64,000 nucleotides of DNA from Reyranella massiliensis 521. GTDB taxonomy: Bacteria; Pseudomonadota; Alphaproteobacteria; Reyranellales; Reyranellaceae. The notes beneath the pieces are model-generated. The model searched no databases. It had not been told where the DNA came from and saw nothing but the letters and a program-made list of their open reading frames with translations. The stretch is from assembly GCA_945860205.1 (NCBI GenBank), contig CAMARK010000013.1, positions 1-64,000 of the forward strand. The letters run 5' to 3'. Made by a program: the position numbers and the translations under genes. This document shows, piece by piece, positions 10,335-63,084 of this stretch; the stretch's first letter is position 1; the number at the start of each line of letters is the position of its first letter.

Positions 10335-11969
10335 TCAGATGGCGACTGCCTGGCTGTCGGCGCCGATGGCTTCGAGGTTGAATGCCGCCGCGATCAACGC
10401 CTGGGTATAAGGCGTCTGGGGTGCCTCGAAGACCTGCTTGGCCGGCCCGCGCTCAACGACCTTGCCGTGGCGCAGCACGATGACCTCGTCGGCCAGCGCC
10501 CGCACGACCTTTAGATCATGGCTTATGAAAAGATATGCCAGCCTGTGGCGGCCCTGCAGGTCGCGCAGCAGGTCGACGATCTGGGCCTGCACGCTCATGT
10601 CGAGCGCCGATGTCGGCTCATCGAGCACGATGAAACGCGGCTTCAGCACCAGGGCGCGGGCGATCGCGATGCGCTGGCGCTGTCCGCCCGAGAATTCGTG
10701 CGGATAGCGCTCACGCGAGGCGACATCGAGGCCGACTTCGCGCAAGGCCTGGTCGATTGCCTGGCTGCGCTCGGCCGGGCTGCCGATCTTGTGGACTTCC
10801 AGCCCTTCGCCCACGATCTCGCCCACCGACATGCGCGGGCTGAGCGAGCTGAAAGGGTCCTGAAAGACGATCTGCATCTGCCGGCGCAGCGACCGCAGTT
10901 CGCGCGCGCCTAGGGTCTGCAAATCCTGCCCGTCGAACCGAATGCCGCCCTGGCTCTTCTCGAGCCGCAGCAGGGCAAGACCCAGCGTGGTCTTGCCCGA
11001 GCCGGATTCGCCCACCAGACCAATCGTGTGTCCTTCGCGCAGGGCGAGGCTGACCCCGTCGACCGCCTTCACATGCCCGACCGTGCGGCGCAGCACGCCG
11101 CGCCGGATCGGGAAGTGCACCTTGATGTCATCGAGACGCAGGATCTCCGGCGCGGCGGGATCGGCGACCACCGGCCGGCCCTTGGGCTCGGCCGACAGGA
11201 GATGCTGGGTGTAGCTGTGCTGCGGATTGTCGAAGACCTGGGCGACCGGTCCCTGCTCGACGATCCGGCCCTTGGTCATCACGCAGACCCGGTCGGCCAT
11301 CTTTCGCACGATGCCGAGATCGTGGGTGATGAACAGCAGCGCCATGCCGTAGCGCTTCTGCAGGGTCTTCAGCAGCTTCAGGATCTGCGCCTGGATCGTG
11401 ACGTCGAGCGCCGTGGTCGGCTCGTCGGCGATCAGCAGGCCGGGCTCGTTGGCGAGCGCCATGGCGATCATCACGCGCTGGCGCTGTCCGCCCGAGAGCT
11501 GATGCGGATAGGCATCGAGCCGCTTGACCGCCTCGGGGATGCCGACCTGCTCCAGCAGTTCGAGCGTACGTTTTCGCGCGGCGTCCTTTGAAAGGCCCTT
11601 GTGCAGGACCAGCACCTCGTTCACCTGCCGCTCGATCGTGTGCAGCGGGTTGAGCGAGGTCATCGGCTCCTGGAAGATCATCGACACGCGATTGCCGCGC
11701 ACGTTCAGCAATTCGCGCGTCGTGGCGCCGACCAGCTCTCGGCCCTGGAAGCGGATGCTGCCCGTGGGATGGCTGGCCACCGGATAGGGCAACAGTTGCA
11801 GGATCGACAGCGCCGTCACCGACTTGCCGGATCCTGATTCACCGACCAGCGCCACGGTCTCGCCGCGGCGGACGTCGAAACTGACGCCTTTCACCGCCCG
11901 GACGGCGTTGTCGCCGGTGCCGAACGTCACCGACAGGTTCTGGACCTGGAGCAGGGTGTCGTCGCTCAT
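10335..11969 (-). CDS. yejF: ABC transporter, dual ATP-binding protein (YejF-like)
   Basis: A 544-residue protein with two complete ABC ATPase domains in tandem. Each has Walker A ('GESGSGKS' near residue 42 and 'GESGSGKTT' near 325), the signature 'LSGGQRQRV' or 'FSGGQRQRI', and Walker B ('[12 protein letters not shown]', '[12 protein letters not shown]'). It powers the peptide importer formed by the two permeases upstream. Fused double ATPases of this size next to yejB/yejE-like permeases are typical of YejABEF, which takes up oligopeptides and, in enterics, microcin C. The ATG at 11969 overlaps the stop of the YejE-like gene as ATGA. Confidence 0.93.
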
Positions 11970-12988
11970 GTCGGCACCCTGCGCGGATTGAAGGCATCGC
12001 GCACGGCCTCGCCGATGAACACCAGCAGCGACAGCATGAGCGCAATGATGAAGAAGCCGGTGAAGGCCAGCCAGGGCGCGTTGAGGTTGTTCTTGCCCTG
12101 CAGCAGCAGTTCGCCCAGCGACGGCGAGCCGACCGGAAGGCCGAAACCCAGGAAGTCGAGCGACGTCAGGGTTGTGACGGAGCCGGCCAGGATGAAGGGC
12201 AGGAAGGTCAGGCTCGCGGTCATGGCGTTGGGCAGGATGTGCCGGAACATGATGCGCACGTCCAGCATGCCCAGCGCCCGGGCGGCGCGGACATAGTCGA
12301 AATTGCGCCCACGCAGGAACTCCGCCCGCACGAGGCCGACCAGCGACATCCAGCTGAACAGCAGCATGATGCCGAGCAGGACCCAGAAACCGGGCTGGAT
12401 GAAGCTCGCCAGGATGATCAGGAGGTAGAGGGTCGGCATGCTCGACCAGATTTCCAGGAAGCGCTGCATCATCAGGTCGACCATGCCGCCGAAATAGCCC
12501 TGGACCGCGCCGGCGATGATGCCGATCACGGCGCTGAGGAGGGTGAGCGCGAAGCCGAACAGGACGGAAATCCGGAATCCGTAGATCAGGCGGGCCAGCA
12601 CGTCCCGTGCCTGATCGTCGGTGCCGAGGAGATGCTCCCAGGACGGCGGCAGCAATGCCTTGCGGCCGTCGCCCTTGAGGACCGTGTCGTAGCTGTAGGG
12701 AATGGGTGGCCACAGGATCCAGCCGCCCTTCTCGTGGATCAGCGTCTGCAGCTCATGGTCGGTGTAGACCGCGTTGGTCGGAAAATCGCCGCCGAACGTC
12801 GTCTCGGGATAATCCCGCAGCATCGGCGAATAGAAGGCGCCGTCGTAGCGGATCAGGATCGGTCTATTGTTGGCCAACAGCTCGGCAAACAGCGACACGA
12901 AGAACAACAGGCCGAACACGGCCAGCGAGATCATGCCGCGCCGGCTCGACCGGAAGATGGCGAGGCGCCGCCTGTTGAGCGGGGTCAT
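11966..12988 (-). CDS. yejE: ABC transporter permease (YejE-like)
   Basis: A 340-residue inner-membrane permease of the DppC/YejE type. After a first transmembrane helix (about 18-38) comes a periplasmic insert of about 95 residues ('NNRPILIRYDGAFYSPMLRDYP' region), which is characteristic of YejE. The transport domain follows, with the EAA loop 'VRAARALGMLDVRIMFRHILPNA'. Its ATG overlaps the stop of the upstream permease gene by one base (TGATG), and its own stop overlaps yejF. The partners are the YejB-like permease, the double ATPase and the binding protein at 14106-15962. Confidence 0.93.
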   Translation of the reverse strand: MTPLNRRRLAIFRSSRRGMISLAVFGLLFFVSLFAELLANNRPILIRYDGAFYSPMLRDYPETTFGGDFPTNAVYTDHELQTLIHEKGGWILWPPIPYSYDTVLKGDGRKALLPPSWEHLLGTDDQARDVLARLIYGFRISVLFGFALTLLSAVIGIIAGAVQGYFGGMVDLMMQRFLEIWSSMPTLYLLIILASFIQPGFWVLLGIMLLFSWMSLVGLVRAEFLRGRNFDYVRAARALGMLDVRIMFRHILPNAMTASLTFLPFILAGSVTTLTSLDFLGFGLPVGSPSLGELLLQGKNNLNAPWLAFTGFFIIALMLSLLVFIGEAVRDAFNPRRVPT

Positions 12989-14091
12989 CAGGAGCGCGAC
13001 TCGAAATCGATCCGGGGATCGACCACGGTGTACATGACGTCGCCCAGGATGCCCATGACGAGGCCGATCAGGCCGAAGAAGTAGAGCGTGCCGAACATGA
13101 TCGGGTAGTCGCGGTTCAGCGCCGCCTCGAAGCCGAGCAGGCCGAGCCCATCCAGCGTGAAGATCACCTCGATCAGCAGCGATCCCGTGAACAGAACGCC
13201 GATGAAGGCCGCCGGAAAGCCGGCGACCACGATCAGCATGGCGTTGCGGAAGACATGGCCGTACAGCACACGGCGCTCGGTCAGGCCCTTGGCGCGTGCC
13301 GTCAGCACGTACTGCTTGTGGATTTCCTCGAGGAAGGAGTTTTTGGTGAGAAAGGTGAGCGTGGTGAAGCCGCCGATCACCATGGCGCCGATCGGCAGCG
13401 CCATGTGCCAGGCATAGTCGAGCGCCTTGCTGGCCAGGTCGAGCGTACTCCAGTCGTCGGATACAAGCCCGCGCAACGGAAACCATTTGAAGTAGCTGCC
13501 GCCGGCGAACAGCACGACGAGGAGCAGCGCGAACAGGAACCCCGGGATCGCGTGCAGCACGATGAGTATGGTGGACGTCGACAGATCGAACTGTGATCCG
13601 TCCCGGACCGCCTTGGCGATGCCGAGCGGGATCGAGACGAAGTAGACCAGCAGCGTCGTCCAGAGGCCGAGCGAGATGGAGACCGGCATCTTCTCGATGA
13701 TGAGGTCGACGACGCGCCTGTTGCGGAAGAAGCTCTCGCCGAAATCGAACGTGATGTAGCTCTTCAGCATCAAACCGAAGCGCTCGTAGGCCGGCTTGTC
13801 GAACCCGTACATCTTCTCGATGCGCTGGATGAGTTCGCGCGGCAGGCCGCGCGCGCCGCGATAGGCGCCGGCGTCGCCGCTGGTGCTGACCTGTCCGCCC
13901 TGTGCGATCTCGCCGCCCGAGGCGGAACCGGAGAATCGCTCGGTGGCGCCGATGGCCGTGCCCTGGATCTGGGAGATCATCTGCTCGACCGGCCCGCCGG
14001 GGGCTGCCTGAACGATGAAGAAGTTGATCACCATGATGCCGAACAGGGTCGGTATCACCAGCATCAGACGGCGCAGGATGTAGGCGAGCAT
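12988..14091 (-). CDS. yejB: ABC transporter permease (YejB-like)
   Basis: A 367-residue DppB/YejB-type permease. The N-terminal helix 'LMLVIPTLFGIMVINFFIVQ' is followed by a long periplasmic loop, the EAA-type loop 'VLTARAKGLTERRVLYGHVFRNA', and C-terminal helices ending in 'VVDPRIDFESRS'. It forms the translocation pore with the YejE-like protein. The ATG at 14091 begins 14 bases after the stop of the binding-protein gene. The much longer open frame upstream of this start is the shadow of that gene. Confidence 0.93.
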   Translation of the reverse strand: MLAYILRRLMLVIPTLFGIMVINFFIVQAAPGGPVEQMISQIQGTAIGATERFSGSASGGEIAQGGQVSTSGDAGAYRGARGLPRELIQRIEKMYGFDKPAYERFGLMLKSYITFDFGESFFRNRRVVDLIIEKMPVSISLGLWTTLLVYFVSIPLGIAKAVRDGSQFDLSTSTILIVLHAIPGFLFALLLVVLFAGGSYFKWFPLRGLVSDDWSTLDLASKALDYAWHMALPIGAMVIGGFTTLTFLTKNSFLEEIHKQYVLTARAKGLTERRVLYGHVFRNAMLIVVAGFPAAFIGVLFTGSLLIEVIFTLDGLGLLGFEAALNRDYPIMFGTLYFFGLIGLVMGILGDVMYTVVDPRIDFESRS

Positions 14092-14105
14092 GGGGCGGCC
14101 GCCGC

Positions 14106-15962
14106 CTACTTCCTCTCGCGTTGCAGGGCCCGATCCTTGGCCTCGTCGATCCACCAGGTATCGAAGGCCACGGGCGCGTAGCGGGCGGACTTGGCCGGAC
14201 GACCGAAGCGGTTCCAGTAGGCCACGAAGGCGGTATTGCTGTGCCAGTTCGGCACCACGAAATGGCTCCACAGCAGGACGCGGTCGAGCGCGCGCGTGAC
14301 ATTGACCAGGCTTTCGCGGTCGGGTGCCGCGATCAGTGTCTCGATCAGCGCGTCGATCGCGGCGTCCTTGATGCCGAGCGTGTTGCGGCCGCCGTTGGTC
14401 TCCGCCGCCTTGGAACCCCAGAAGTCGCGCTGCTCGTTGCCGGGCGACAGCGACTGGCCGAAGCTCTCCACGATCATGTCGAAATCGAACTCGTCGACGC
14501 GGCGCTTGAACTGCGCGGTGTCGACCGTGCGCACGTTGATGTCGACGCCGATGCGCTCGAGGTTCTGCTTGTAGGGCAGCGTGACGCGCTCGAAGCTGGC
14601 GTCGCTCAGCAGCATCTCGAAGGCGAGTTTCTTGCCCGTCTTCGTTTCCGTCATCTTGCCGTCCTTGACCTCCCAGCCCGCTTCCTTGAGGAGGGCGAGC
14701 GAACGCCGTGCCAGATCGCGCACGTTGCCCGTGCCGTCCGACTCCGGGAGCTTGAACTCCTTGGTGAAGACCTCCTCGGGAATCTTGCCACGCAACGGCT
14801 CGAGATATTTCAGTTCGGCCGGCGTCGGCAGGCCCGACGAGGCGAGCTCCGAGTTGCCGAAGAACGAGATGTTCCGCTTGTACATTCCGTAGAACAGATT
14901 CTTGTTGGACCAGGCGAAGTCGAACATCGTGGCGATTGCTTCGCGCACGCGCTTGTCCTTGAAATAGTCGCGGCGGGTGTTGAAGGCGAAGCACTGCATG
15001 CCGGTCGGCAGTTCGTGGGGAATCTCGGCGCGCTGGATGCGGCCGTCGCGCACCGCGGGAATGTCGTAGGCCGTCGCCCAGTTGCGCGCGATGTTCTCCT
15101 GGCGGATATCGAGGTCGCCGCCCTTGAAGGCTTCGAATTGCACCGTGACGTCGCGATAGTATTCGTAGCGGATGACGTCGAAGTTGCTGCGGCCCTTGTT
15201 CATCCAGAGGTCCTTCGCCCACCAGTCGTCGACCCGGCGGTAGGCGATGGCGCGCCCGACATCGAATGTGTCGACCTTGTAGGCGCCGCTGCCCATGGGC
15301 ACTTCGAGCGAGACTTTCTCGAAGTCGCGGCTTGCCCACCACTTGGAGGGCAGGATCGGGAGCTGGCCCAGGATCAGGGGCAGCTCCTTGTTGGTATTGT
15401 CACGGAAGGAGAACAGCACCTTGCGGTCGCCCGTTTTCTCGGCCTTGACCACGTCGTGATAGTAGAGCCCGTAGAGCGGCGTGCCCTTGGTCTTCAGGAT
15501 ATCGAGGGAGAAGATCACGTCCTCGACGGTGATCGGGCTGCCGTCATGCCAGCGCGCCTGCGGCCGGAGCGTGAAGGCGACCCAGGACCGGTCTTCCGGC
15601 CACTCGATCGTCTCGGCGATCAGCCCGTACTCGGTCGAGGCCTCATCCCGTGAATTCCAGCAGAGCGTGTCCCAGATCTGTGTGATGCCGGCGGCGGGGA
15701 CGCTTTTGACGATGAAGGGGTGAAGGGAATCGAAGGTCCCGCGTGCGCCCAGCCGGACGCTGCCACCCTTGGGCGCGTTGGCATTGAGATAGTCGGGCGG
15801 GCCTGCGTCGGCGGCATATTTCGGCGTGCCGTGCATGGCAAAGCCATGGCTCACGTTCACTTTGGGGGCGGTCTGCGCTCGCAGGATCGCCGGCCCGCCG
15901 ATCCCCGATCCGACCCACAAGGCCGTCCCGCCCGCCAATATGCTGCGCCGTCCGATCGCCAT
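14106..15962 (-). CDS. yejA: ABC transporter peptide-binding protein, family 5 (YejA-like)
   Basis: A 618-residue extracellular solute-binding protein family 5 member, the peptide receptor of the YejABEF-like importer. The N-terminus 'MAIGRRSILAGG' with a twin arginine and a hydrophobic stretch ending 'AILRAQ' looks like a Tat-type signal. Family features include 'WVAFTLRPQARWHDGSPITVEDVIFSL' (seen as two adjoining blocks) and the late 'FDFAWSNKNLFYGMYKRN' segment typical of YejA. The start at 15962 has GGGGAG upstream; the longer frame adds 21 residues without a clear ribosome site. First gene of the minus-strand set yejA-yejB-yejE-yejF. Confidence 0.93.
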   Translation of the reverse strand: MAIGRRSILAGGTALWVGSGIGGPAILRAQTAPKVNVSHGFAMHGTPKYAADAGPPDYLNANAPKGGSVRLGARGTFDSLHPFIVKSVPAAGITQIWDTLCWNSRDEASTEYGLIAETIEWPEDRSWVAFTLRPQARWHDGSPITVEDVIFSLDILKTKGTPLYGLYYHDVVKAEKTGDRKVLFSFRDNTNKELPLILGQLPILPSKWWASRDFEKVSLEVPMGSGAYKVDTFDVGRAIAYRRVDDWWAKDLWMNKGRSNFDVIRYEYYRDVTVQFEAFKGGDLDIRQENIARNWATAYDIPAVRDGRIQRAEIPHELPTGMQCFAFNTRRDYFKDKRVREAIATMFDFAWSNKNLFYGMYKRNISFFGNSELASSGLPTPAELKYLEPLRGKIPEEVFTKEFKLPESDGTGNVRDLARRSLALLKEAGWEVKDGKMTETKTGKKLAFEMLLSDASFERVTLPYKQNLERIGVDINVRTVDTAQFKRRVDEFDFDMIVESFGQSLSPGNEQRDFWGSKAAETNGGRNTLGIKDAAIDALIETLIAAPDRESLVNVTRALDRVLLWSHFVVPNWHSNTAFVAYWNRFGRPAKSARYAPVAFDTWWIDEAKDRALQRERK

Positions 15963-16064
15963 CCGATGCGCTCCCCAAGCCAGCCTGTTCTGCACCCTAT
16001 ATAGCGTGCAGGAGTTGGGCCGCACTATGGCTGCAGGGTTACAGGCCTGTCAGCTTTCGCCGGT

Positions 16065-17039
16065 TCAGCTTTCACTCTTGATGCCGGCATCCTTCACCAG
16101 CTTGCCGTAGCGCGCGTAGTCGGCCTTCCACATCGCGAGCACGTCGGCCGGCGATCGCGGCGCCGGGACTTCGCAGCCCGCCCTGGTCAGCCGGTCGCGG
16201 GTTTCGGCGCTCTGGAGGGCCTTCATGGCCGATCCGTGCAGGCGCTCGACGATGGCGCCAGGCGTGCCCGCGCGGACGGCGATCGTGTACCAGCTCATCA
16301 CCTGGGCATCGGCAAACCCGGCCTCGGCGAAGGTGGGCACGTCGGGCAGGGTCGGCAGGCGCTGGCCGGCCAGGACGGCGAGCGCCCGCAGCTTGCCCGA
16401 CTGGACGTGCTGGAGGGCGAGCGGTCCCGGCAGCAGGCCGACCTGCAGGCGGCCCTCCAGGAGGTCGGGCAGTCCCGGCGGAATGCCGCGGTAGGGCACC
16501 GAGGTCATGTCGAACTTGTACTGGTATTTGAGCAGCTCGGCCGACAGATGGATCGAGGATCCATTGCCCGGGTTGAGGTAGTTGAGCTTGCCGGGATTGG
16601 CCCGGCCATACTCGACCAATTCCTTCAGGGTCTTGACCGGCACCTCGGCATTGACCGTCGCCACCGACGTCGCGATCGCGACCAACGCCACCGGCTGGAA
16701 GTCGGCCAGCGCGTCGTAGGGCACCGGCTGAAGATGCGGCACCACAACATGGGAAATGGTCGACATCACCCAAGTGTAGCCGTCGGCCGGGGCCTGCGGG
16801 ATCATCGCGGTCGCCAGTGTGGAATTGCCCCCGGGCTTGGGGTCGACCACGACCGGCTGGCCGAGGTCGGCCTGCATCGGGTCGGCCAGCGCGCGGGTCA
16901 CGATGTCGACGATGCCGCCGACCGGATAGGGGACCAGGAAGCGCATCGGCTTCGTGGGGAAGGCTTGCGCCGACGCCTTGGGAGCGACGGCAAAGGCTGC
17001 CACGGCGCCCAGTGCGGCACGGCGTGTCGGATGACGCAT
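16065..17039 (-). CDS. Bug-family (TTT) substrate-binding protein
   Basis: A 324-residue periplasmic binding protein of the Bug/TctC family. A twin-arginine signal ('MRHPTRRAALGAVAA', cleavage near 'ASAQA') precedes 'PMRFLVPYPVGGIVDIVTRALA' (as two blocks), 'VVVDPKPGGNSTLAT' and 'VPYRGIPPGLPDLLEG'. GGGAGGAATC gives a strong ribosome site for ATG 17039. No TTT permease lies nearby, so it is an orphan receptor like most Bug proteins. It precedes yejA on the same strand by 102 bases and may or may not share its transcript. Confidence 0.93.
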   Translation of the reverse strand: MRHPTRRAALGAVAAFAVAPKASAQAFPTKPMRFLVPYPVGGIVDIVTRALADPMQADLGQPVVVDPKPGGNSTLATAMIPQAPADGYTWVMSTISHVVVPHLQPVPYDALADFQPVALVAIATSVATVNAEVPVKTLKELVEYGRANPGKLNYLNPGNGSSIHLSAELLKYQYKFDMTSVPYRGIPPGLPDLLEGRLQVGLLPGPLALQHVQSGKLRALAVLAGQRLPTLPDVPTFAEAGFADAQVMSWYTIAVRAGTPGAIVERLHGSAMKALQSAETRDRLTRAGCEVPAPRSPADVLAMWKADYARYGKLVKDAGIKSES

Positions 17040-17144
17040 TGTGATTCCTCCCGATTTCTTGAGTGCGAAATTAAGGGGCACTCATCGCCTTGTCACCCGG
17101 CCTCCCGGTTTGACTTCGCAGTCCCGGAGTTCCACGCTTCGGCC

Positions 17145-18071
17145 ATGACCGACACCATGAATTTCGCGCCGGATTTCGACGTTCCCCTCGAATACATGCG
17201 CCGCACGCGCGAGTACTACCTCGCGCTGGGTTACGACAACCCCTACCGCTGGGCGCACTATGTGGATGCCCCCTTCCAGCCGCTGAAGAAGCCGCTGAAG
17301 GACAGCACCCTGGCGCTGATCACCACGGCGGCACCTTATCAGCCCGACAAGGGCGATCAGGGACCTGGTGCCCTCTACAATGCGGGCGCCAAGTTCTACG
17401 CGGTCTTTTCGGGTGACACTGCGGTCGATCACGACACCCGCATCTCCCACATCGGCTACGATCGCAAGCACACCACGGCCAAGGACAGCAACACCTGGTT
17501 CCCGTTGCCGCTGATGCGCGAGTTTGCGGCCGAGGGCCGCTTCAATCTGGCGCCGCGGTTCCATGGCGCGCCGACCAACCGCAGCCAGCGCGTGACTCTG
17601 GAGACCGATGCACCGGAAATTCTGGCGCGTTGCCGGCAGGATCAGGTCGATGCTGCGCTGCTGGTGCCTACTTGACCCGTCTGCCACCAGACCGTGAGTC
17701 TGGTCGCCCGATATCTCGAACGGAACGGCATCCCGACAGTCGTGATGGGGGCGGCGAAGGACATCGTCGAATATTCCGGTGTGCCGCGCTTCCTGTTCAG
17801 CGACTTCCCGCTCGGCAATTCCTGCGGCAAGCCGCACGAACCCGACACCCAGCGCTTCACCCTCGATCTGGCACTGAAGGTCTTCGAGAGCGCCATCGGA
17901 CCGCGCACCACGGTGCAGTCGCCGCTGCGCTGGACCGAGGATGGCGACTGGAAGAACGACTACAACAATATCGCCCGCATGCCGCCGGAAGAGGTCGCCA
18001 AGCGGCGTGCCGAGTTCGACAAGGTGAAACAGGTCGCACTCAGCCAACGCAAGCAGGCGGGCGTCGCCTAG
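17145..18071 (+). CDS. Selenoprotein of the PrdB/GrdB (proline/glycine reductase) family, TGA read as selenocysteine
   Basis: One continuous frame of 308 codons plus stop, interrupted only by a TGA at codon 177 (17673-17675). The codons around it read ...ALLVPT-U-PVCHQTVSLVARYLE..., a UxxC redox motif followed by His as in clostridial PrdB (UGTCH). Residues 1-176 and 178-308 belong to the same glycine/sarcosine/betaine/D-proline reductase selenoprotein B family: 'KDSTLALITTAAPY' and 'DTRISHIGYDRKHTTAKDSN' before, 'NGIPTVVMGAAKDIVEYSGVPRFLFSDFPLG' (in pieces) after. A hairpin of SECIS type begins 11 bases after the TGA. In Clostridia the family cleaves C-N bonds of amino acids with selenocysteine; aerobic proteobacterial members have no proven reaction. 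No selA/B/C/D gene lies in the window. The alternatives are a pseudogene or a base error. The upstream GGAG site is weak and distant. Confidence 0.85.
17673..17707 (+). other. Candidate bacterial SECIS element with in-frame TGA
   Basis: Seen in sequence: TGA at 17673-17675; ACCAGAC (17686-17692) pairs perfectly with GTCTGGT (17698-17704) around the 5-base loop CGTGA. A C/C mismatch and two more pairs (17683-17684 with 17706-17707) extend the stem. The loop G and U are 19 and 20 bases after the TGA; in the E. coli fdhF SECIS the essential loop G and U are at about 20 and 21. SelB should bind this hairpin during translation. Confidence 0.75.
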
Positions 18072-18090: not shown

Positions 18091-18202
18091 TGTCATCCTG
18101 AGCGAAGCCCTGTCATCCTGAGCGCAGCGAAGGATCTCGCGGAACGATCAGACAAGGTCTGTGGGGTTGGCGTAAGGTCCTTCGCTGCGCTCAGGACGAC
18201 AG
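18091..18202. repeat. Palindromic intergenic repeat (TGTCATCCTGAG type)
   Basis: Two direct copies of TGTCATCCTGAGCG (18091 and 18111). The second begins an arm of about 25 bases that is inverted at 18176-18200 (GGTCCTTCGCTGCGCTCAGG...). RNA from either strand would fold into a long hairpin. It fills the gap between the selenoprotein gene and the CoA-transferase gene and may act as a transcript end or mRNA stabiliser. Related elements are at 56068-56118, 51671-51773 and 63798-63911. Confidence 0.8.
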
Positions 18203-18212
18203 AAAGAGACAA

Positions 18213-19406
18213 ATGAGTAAGCCTTTTGCCGGTGTCAAAGTCCTCGATTTCACGCGCGTTCTGGCGGGGCCCTATGCCTCGTACCAGCTGGCACTACTGG
18301 GTGCCGACGTCATCAAGGTCGAGTCGCGTGATGGCGACGACATGCGCTACGGCAACCGCGCCAACGACTGGGAGAAGCGCGGGCTCGCGGCACCCTGGAT
18401 CGCCGTCAACGCCGGCAAGCGCTCGATCACGCTCGATCTCAAGAAGCCCAAGGCGATCGAGGCCATCAAACGGCTGGCCGCCAAGGCCGACGTGGTGATC
18501 GAGAATTTTCGCCCCGGCGTCATGACCAATCTCGGCATCGGCTACGAGACGTTGCGCGTCCTCAATCCGAAGCTGATTTATTGCGCGGTGTCGGGCTTCG
18601 GCCAGGTCGGCCCGCAGGCCAAGACGGCGGCCTTCGACGGCATGATCCAGGCGATGTCCGGGCTGATGTCGATCACCGGCTTCGAGAACAATGGGCCGAC
18701 GCGCGTAGGCTTCGCCGGCGCCGACGTGATGTCGGGGGCGACGGCGGCGCTGGGCGTCGCCTCGGCGCTGTTCCAGCGCACCCACACCGGCAAGGGCCAG
18801 CTCGTGGATGTCGCCATGATCGACGCGGTGATGGGCTATCTCGCCCAGCAATTCACCGAACATCTGGTGACCGGCCGCGTGCACGGCCAGTCCGCCAACC
18901 TGTCGGTGACGCGCAAGCCCACGGGCAATCTCTTCAAGACCAAAGATGGCTGGATCGTGCTTGCCGTCATGACCGATCCGCAGTTCCAGCGCCTGATGAA
19001 GGAAGTGGGGCGCGCCGATGCGCTCGGCGATCCCAGGTTCGCCGACTGGCCGACTCGCATCGAGAACAACACGGCCTTGCACGAGATCATCGAGGAAGCG
19101 CTCAAGCGGGAGACGTCCACGACCTGGTCGGCGCGCTTTACCAAGTCGGATATCCCGGCCGGCCAGGTGCTGAGCATTCCCGAGACCGTCCAGCTCGACC
19201 TCTTCCAGCACCGCACCGTGCTGCAATCCGTCGACACGCCGCATGGCCCGATCAGGGTAGTGGGCTCGGGCTTCCGTCTCGAACACGGCGGCGGCTCGGT
19301 CGAACGCTCGCCGGCGACGCTGGGCGAACACACCGACGAGGTGCTGGGCGAAGCCGGCTACTCGCCGGCCGAAGTCGCGGAAATGCGCGAGGCCAAGGTC
19401 GTCTAG
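18213..19406 (+). CDS. CaiB/BaiF family (class III) CoA transferase
   Basis: A 397-residue enzyme that moves CoA between carboxylic acids through an aspartyl intermediate. The N-terminus 'FAGVKVLDFTRVLAGPYASYQLALLGADVIKVE' (two blocks) and 'NAGKRSITLDLKKPKA' are classic. 'AFDGMIQAMSGLMSITG' holds the likely catalytic Asp near residue 145, and the small domain with 'VDVAMIDAVMGYL' follows. Formyl-CoA:oxalate and succinyl-CoA:mesaconate transferases are related, but the substrate cannot be named. ATG 18213 follows a repeat; the ribosome site (AAGAGA) is modest. The stop shares the palindrome CTAG with the convergent gene, so the two overlap by four bases. Confidence 0.93.
   Translation: MSKPFAGVKVLDFTRVLAGPYASYQLALLGADVIKVESRDGDDMRYGNRANDWEKRGLAAPWIAVNAGKRSITLDLKKPKAIEAIKRLAAKADVVIENFRPGVMTNLGIGYETLRVLNPKLIYCAVSGFGQVGPQAKTAAFDGMIQAMSGLMSITGFENNGPTRVGFAGADVMSGATAALGVASALFQRTHTGKGQLVDVAMIDAVMGYLAQQFTEHLVTGRVHGQSANLSVTRKPTGNLFKTKDGWIVLAVMTDPQFQRLMKEVGRADALGDPRFADWPTRIENNTALHEIIEEALKRETSTTWSARFTKSDIPAGQVLSIPETVQLDLFQHRTVLQSVDTPHGPIRVVGSGFRLEHGGGSVERSPATLGEHTDEVLGEAGYSPAEVAEMREAKVV

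Positions 19407-60847: not shown

Positions 60848-63084
<2,237 letters not shown>

Follow-up and report, generated by a model that had tools for sequence, protein, structure and literature searches.

A predicted selenoprotein of the PrdB/GrdB superfamily and its probable CoA-transferase partner in the alphaproteobacterium Reyranella massiliensis

A gene of Reyranella massiliensis 521 carries a single in-frame TGA, which raises the questions of whether this codon specifies selenocysteine (Sec) and which type of enzyme the gene encodes. The window, i.e. the whole stretch of 64,000 nucleotides that was analysed, belongs to contig C13 of a 4.98-Mb genome (210 contigs, estimated completeness 100%), the closest relatives of which are Reyranella and Reyranella-like metagenome genomes. 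The host is a bacterium of soil and freshwater. The gene forms a single 308-codon frame with the TGA at codon 177 as its only internal stop. The initial annotation had described it as open on both sides of one TGA, and the frame indeed reads through to a terminal TAG. The features of the gene are:

17145..18071, plus strand: predicted selenoprotein gene of the PrdB/GrdB superfamily, 308 residues with Sec177, stop codon TAG; the ATG aligns with the starts of homologues (80 loci)
17673..17675, plus strand: in-frame TGA, predicted selenocysteine codon 177 (59 TGA, 17 TGC and 4 TGT in 80 loci)
17682..17684, plus strand: TGC, Cys180, the cysteine of the UxxC motif, without variation in alignment A1
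17686..17704, plus strand: predicted bacterial SECIS hairpin; stem 17686-17692 / 17698-17704, loop 17693-17697 (CGUGA) with G17694 and U17695

Codon 177 was compared across 80 related loci with identities of 66 to 96%, many of which come from metagenome bins. It is TGA in 59 loci and a Cys codon in the remaining 21, and no other codon occurs. The homologue alignment that the initial annotation had proposed for this position thus yields only Sec or Cys. Comparison of 28 relatives with the window gene gave a mean pN of 0.055 and a mean pS of 0.418 before the TGA, and 0.050 and 0.344, respectively, after it. Purifying selection is about equal on both halves of the gene. Conserved residues are distributed over the whole protein and are not confined to the UxxC motif.

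The hairpin (ACCAGAC-CGTGA-GTCTGGT) spans 11–29 bases downstream of UGA177. Its loop G and U follow the TGA at distances of 19 and 20 bases, exactly where they had been placed before. Folded alone, the hairpin reaches -13.6 kcal/mol, which is only modestly better than shuffled sequences (z -2.0), and folding energy was dropped as a stand-alone argument for a SECIS element because of this low z value. Covariation was analyzed in 18 TGA contexts, a subset of 26 from which near-duplicates were dropped. In these, 93.5% of the cells of the six-pair helix are paired and 27 cells are changed on both sides of the helix. The shuffled mean is 9.9 and none of 500 shuffles, which keep the relatedness among the sequences, was as high. 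The covariation score of the helix is 0.60 vs 0.18 at best when the helix was slid; neither the slid controls nor the Cys set carry a covariation signal. The loop G-U is present in all 26 distinct TGA contexts, which come from several subfamilies, vs 7 of 29 Cys contexts. Stem pairs are also broken in the Cys contexts, which indicates decay of the SECIS element in Cys forms. Furthermore, in TGA relatives the hairpin stretch is mostly free of synonymous change, which reappears in the Cys relatives compared. The comparison across relatives puts the hairpin far beyond chance.

A search for the selenocysteine machinery, also proposed initially, found all four components in the genome. The tRNA-Sec gene (C153:5740-5831; Rfam 71 bits; ARAGORN anticodon TCA) is located 31 bases behind selB (TIGR00475, 453 bits), and selA (TIGR00474, 559 bits) and selD (TIGR00476, 300 bits) are present as well. 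The contig with selA carries a further gene with an in-frame TGA:

L094:5237-8341, minus strand: formate dehydrogenase alpha subunit with in-frame TGA at L094:7738-7736, selA nearby

In the SECIS element of this formate dehydrogenase gene, the distance between the TGA and the loop G-U exceeds that of the window gene by one base. Within the window, the region 62153-62860 (minus strand) gives a weak match to the SelD profile (36 bits) and probably encodes an ATPase of the PurM/ThiL/HypE type rather than SelD. Among the genomes with the family, selA scores over the cut-off in 27 of 29 TGA genomes and in 18 of 21 Cys genomes; the two TGA genomes without such a match were assembled from metagenomes and are perhaps incomplete. 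The presence of selA is a weak discriminator between Sec and Cys genomes and was rejected as such, since most genomes with Cys forms also retain the machinery.

The window gene almost certainly encodes a selenoprotein with Sec inserted at codon 177, because four lines of evidence, namely machinery, codon, selection and RNA, agree. The initial proposal of Sec at this codon, specified by a SECIS element, is upheld by codon conservation, covariation and equal selection on both sides of the TGA. A reading of the TGA as a normal stop codon or as a lesion (pseudogene or sequencing error), with a hairpin formed by chance, would fit the single-sequence folding energy, which is just two standard deviations better than shuffles, and the behavior of gene callers, which would end the gene at the TGA. 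A TGA maintained in 59 loci, undiminished selection downstream, SECIS covariation and a full Sec machinery leave this explanation a negligible probability.

The initial annotation assigned the protein to the PrdB/GrdB family. This holds at the level of the superfamily: the loose Pfam model GRDB (PF07355) is just reached with 22.9 bits vs a gathering score of 22, at model positions 216-347 only. The placement in PrdB or GrdB proper did not hold. PrdB (TIGR04483) is still the best NCBIfam match, but the window protein scores 84.6 bits vs a cut-off of 300, i.e. 28% of the cut-off, while a clostridial PrdB used as positive control (L134) scores 310.2 bits. For TIGR01918 the score is 35.6 vs a cut-off of 65.45, and the GrdB-type models together (TIGR01917/01918, NF040794/5) give 33.8-39.3 bits vs cut-offs of 65-800, so that none is reached.

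The match to PrdB, the 26-kDa Sec subunit of D-proline reductase, covers residues 43-248 of the window protein. In two clostridial PrdB genes the TGA codon falls in the same alignment column as Sec177, as had been claimed, and UxxC is homologous; UxxCH is common to both proteins. The window protein differs from PrdB by a longer N-terminus, an identity of only ~28–34% and the residues of the motif itself (UPVCHQTVSL vs UGTCHRSS). PrdA is absent from the genome and a CoA-transferase is the neighbor instead. With GrdB, GrdF and GrdH (PF07355, TIGR01917/01918, NF040794/5) the protein shares the C-terminal third of the GRDB model and the Sec site, but it does not possess the N-terminal part of GrdB, its motif is a single UxxC instead of UxxCxxC, and GrdE and GrdA are missing.

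Profile searches of 12 alphaproteobacterial genomes (the window genome and 11 others with the family) found neither the pyruvoyl subunit GrdE/PrdA (PF09338, at E 0.01) nor GrdA (PF04723). The same searches in two clostridial controls found five and three PF09338 matches, respectively, and one GrdA each. In a tree of 90 rows, the 85 alphaproteobacterial rows are separated from clostridial PrdB (support 91) and from GrdB; this is a quick tree with long branches and its deep order is uncertain. Thus, by its sequence the protein is a member of the PrdB/GrdB superfamily and neither a D-proline nor a glycine reductase as these are defined, because the curated cut-offs are missed and the partner subunits are absent.

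The AF2 model of the window protein (pLDDT 84) has an alpha/beta fold in which Sec177 is positioned between a strand (170-174) and a helix (178-193), just before the latter. Comparison of the model with the PDB (Foldseek/VIA) gave generic alpha/beta folds (PBP/Rossmann-like; best Z 9.0) without a functional lead, and sequence searches of the PDB with the single protein or a profile gave nothing meaningful.

The neighborhood of the gene includes the following features:

18213..19406, plus strand: family III (CaiB/BaiF) CoA-transferase, 397 aa, probable operon partner (PF02515, 390.8 bits, cut-off 23.3)
18091..18202, no strand assigned: palindromic interspersed repeat between both genes, arms 18110-18137 and 18175-18202 (28 nt, 93% complementary)
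16065..17081, minus strand: divergent TctC-type substrate-binding protein, neighbor in most Reyranella-type loci but not in distant ones
10335..16025, minus strand: peptide-type ABC importer with ATPase ORF 10335-12713 and permease ORF 12988-15342, conserved in Reyranella-type loci only

Asp171 of the CoA-transferase aligns with a conserved Asp of a solved family member. The best solved relatives are formyl-CoA transferase and succinate-hydroxymethylglutarate CoA-transferase, and no NCBIfam equivalog cut-off is reached by the transferase. A family III CoA-transferase is the next gene on the same strand in 69 of the 77 loci with room for it, with gaps mostly below 50 bases. This linkage is found in Sec and Cys forms alike and extends to distant genomes in which the transferase is 53-57% identical. 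As judged from the spacing, the two genes probably form an operon. The gap in the window (141 bases, compared with less than 50 in most relatives) is due to the palindromic repeat. A 17-base core of this repeat is found in the same intergenic gap of three relatives (L013, L022 and L059). In eight loci with room there is no CoA-transferase directly next to the gene; L020, one of the eight, contains a partial copy. Other subfamilies of the superfamily are also without a CoA-transferase neighbor. The core reaction may therefore not need CoA.

The CoA-transferase context and the alphaproteobacterial host had been recognized correctly from the start. The upstream transporters, including ORF 14106-16025 at the usual place of the ABC binding protein (assigned by position, without a profile search), carry little weight as functional partners, being conserved in Reyranella-type loci only. 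The region that contains the gene and the transferase in genomes G237 and G331 also encodes an acyl-CoA dehydrogenase, DUF2817 proteins and a luciferase-like monooxygenase, as well as a second paralogue with Sec. Two genomes have an acyl-CoA dehydrogenase beside the gene, and a further paralogue has an AMP-binding CoA ligase in its vicinity.

Two precedents bear on the chemistry. In the clostridial reductases, the selenolate cleaves a C-N bond adjacent to an activated carbon (PMC13188914). A GrdB-like protein, the fluoroacetate reductase component FarB of Cloacibacillus, has been proposed to cleave the C-F bond of fluoroacetate without a pyruvoyl partner (PMC10838667). FarB resembles the window protein in that a non-amino-acid substrate is proposed and its partner has no pyruvoyl group. 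It differs in that it belongs to an anaerobe with FarE and a grdA system and has no CoA-transferase.

The window protein is probably a Sec enzyme of a separate clade that works with the downstream family III CoA-transferase. Relatives and neighbors make it conceivable, if only tentatively, that the enzyme uses its selenol to cleave or reduce a CoA-activated acid. Directed by the SECIS hairpin, SelB and Sec-tRNA(UCA) would insert selenocysteine at UGA177, and the resulting enzyme would act without a pyruvoyl subunit and without GrdA. The transferase may convert an imported organic acid to its CoA thioester, and the selenolate of Sec177 may attack the activated substrate at an alpha-substituent or C-X bond. 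Cys180 could then resolve the selenium adduct, and a cellular thiol could reset the enzyme. The role of the clostridial pyruvoyl Schiff base would fall to CoA activation. In its general form the proposal is similarly speculative: a selenoenzyme branch with several members per alphaproteobacterial genome, in which CoA activation replaces the pyruvoyl Schiff base, might cleave or reduce alpha-substituted acyl-CoA in non-fermenting, probably aerobic bacteria.

Other functions have to be weighed against this proposal. The selenoprotein could act in thiol redox reactions or in the detoxification of peroxides or electrophiles by means of a thioredoxin-like UxxC, with the CoA-transferase as a mere neighbor that serves a different step. 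UxxC is common to redox selenoproteins (table in PMC1088965), paralogues without a transferase exist and one relative (L109) adjoins an ORF that, read by eye, is peroxiredoxin-like. The transferase linkage, on the other hand, holds from 96% down to ~60% identity and through Sec/Cys switches, the conservation of residues spans the whole protein instead of the motif only, and the nearest characterized relatives are substrate-specific enzymes. Such a redox function is thus rather unlikely, though it is the least improbable of the alternatives.

Retention of the PrdB/GrdB mechanism with an unrecognized carbonyl or pyruvoyl-like partner encoded elsewhere would agree with the multi-subunit architecture of the characterized glycine and D-proline reductases (PMC13188914). 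It is improbable given that a PF09338 homologue is found in none of the 12 genomes at E 0.01 and no such neighbor is conserved at the loci. Still more improbable is a genuine component of a D-proline (or glycine, sarcosine or betaine) reductase. PrdB is the best NCBIfam match, the Sec sites align and 'glycine/sarcosine/betaine reductase selenoprotein B family protein' is the name that annotation pipelines give to Cys relatives, as seen on RefSeq plasmids. Against this stand the low PrdB score relative to the cut-off, the absence of both the pyruvoyl subunit and GrdA from genomes searched with profiles that gave clear matches in the controls, and a CoA-transferase where prd or grd neighbors would be expected. 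The assignment as a Sec enzyme of a separate clade with a CoA-transferase partner remains preferred.

The window genome holds three Sec paralogues of the superfamily, each with a TGA at the aligned site. Those at other loci are:

C30:45530-46414 (= L100:7531-8415): Sec paralogue, 45% identity to the window protein, one TGA
C84, L099:6099-4948: Sec paralogue, 33% identity to the window protein, one TGA, extra C-terminal region

The C30 paralogue ends in an ATGA overlap, in which its stop codon shares bases with the start codon of an ORF located at the end of the contig. The C-terminal extension of the C84 type comprises ~130 residues without a Pfam match. In three genomes selD adjoins genes of this type (L126:364-1428, L127 and L128; in L126 selD is located 16 bases upstream and SelD scores 438 bits), which suggests a tie between the C84-type subfamily and selenium supply.

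The family profile has matches in 35 of 289 sampled alphaproteobacterial genomes, several of which have many TGA paralogues; G237 and G331 have six each. In a wider sample of the phylum, matches are found in 16 of 398 genomes. Most of these matches are Cys forms, which come from a single family with large genomes and from a genus of another class with a genome size of 2 Mb. The alphaproteobacterial rows of the 90-row tree form several subclades with Sec members in each, and at least ten changes between Sec and Cys are required.

In-frame TAG codons in two genomes were considered as UAG-encoded Sec and rejected: in L116 the TAG is located at ~residue 88 and both Sec columns are Cys. In this Cys form the TAG, away from the active site, is a sequencing error or marks a pseudogene. 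In Roseomonas haemaphysalidis (L131:7968-10353), a Cys relative is arranged tail to tail with selO, the gene of a protein adenylyltransferase. The selO product is a Sec protein in eukaryotes.

The initial annotation had also implied that a selenoprotein of this kind outside anaerobes would be novel. This is contradicted by the literature, as Sec PrdB-like genes are common in surface-water metagenomes of the Sargasso Sea and GOS (PMC1088965, PMC2398784). In the Sargasso Sea, 'Proline reductase PrdB' with UxxC ranked as one of the most abundant selenoprotein families (42 Sec genes; PMC1088965), and in GOS surface waters the 'PrdB' family, with 235 Sec and 110 Cys genes, was among the commonest (PMC2398784). 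The marine sequences (Zhang et al. 2005, 2008) resemble the window protein in the Sec UxxC, the pfam07355-like character and the many forms with Sec or Cys outside clostridia. Judged by their description, they very probably include its family. They carry the proline-reductase name, and no operon, paralogue or partner analysis of them was found. The UGSC family (NF041046) is likewise a UxxC selenoprotein widespread in surface waters, but it comprises 147 residues and the window protein does not match its model; clostridial PrdB has weak profile similarity to it around the motif (20 bits). For Alphaproteobacteria, older surveys listed formate dehydrogenase as the only selenoprotein (PMC1794560), and it has also been called the primary use (PMC8124441). 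Among open papers, none was found that treats the linkage to the CoA-transferase, the absence of the partner subunits or the sets of paralogues, nor any account of a Reyranella selenoprotein or of such genes in Rhodospirillales.

Sec PrdB-like genes outside clostridia are thus already known from the marine metagenomes of 2005 and 2008. In one ordinary alphaproteobacterial genome the number of Sec genes is at least four, of which three belong to the family of the window gene, and some relatives have six from that family alone. Gene callers that stop at TGA split such genes, and the pipeline name glycine/sarcosine/betaine reductase is contradicted by the missing partner subunits. For a family that has been known from ocean metagenomes since 2005, the conserved CoA-transferase offers a concrete starting point to address the reaction. 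Additionally, the repeated switches between Sec and Cys, with decay of the SECIS element in the Cys forms, constitute a clean natural test of the contribution of selenium.
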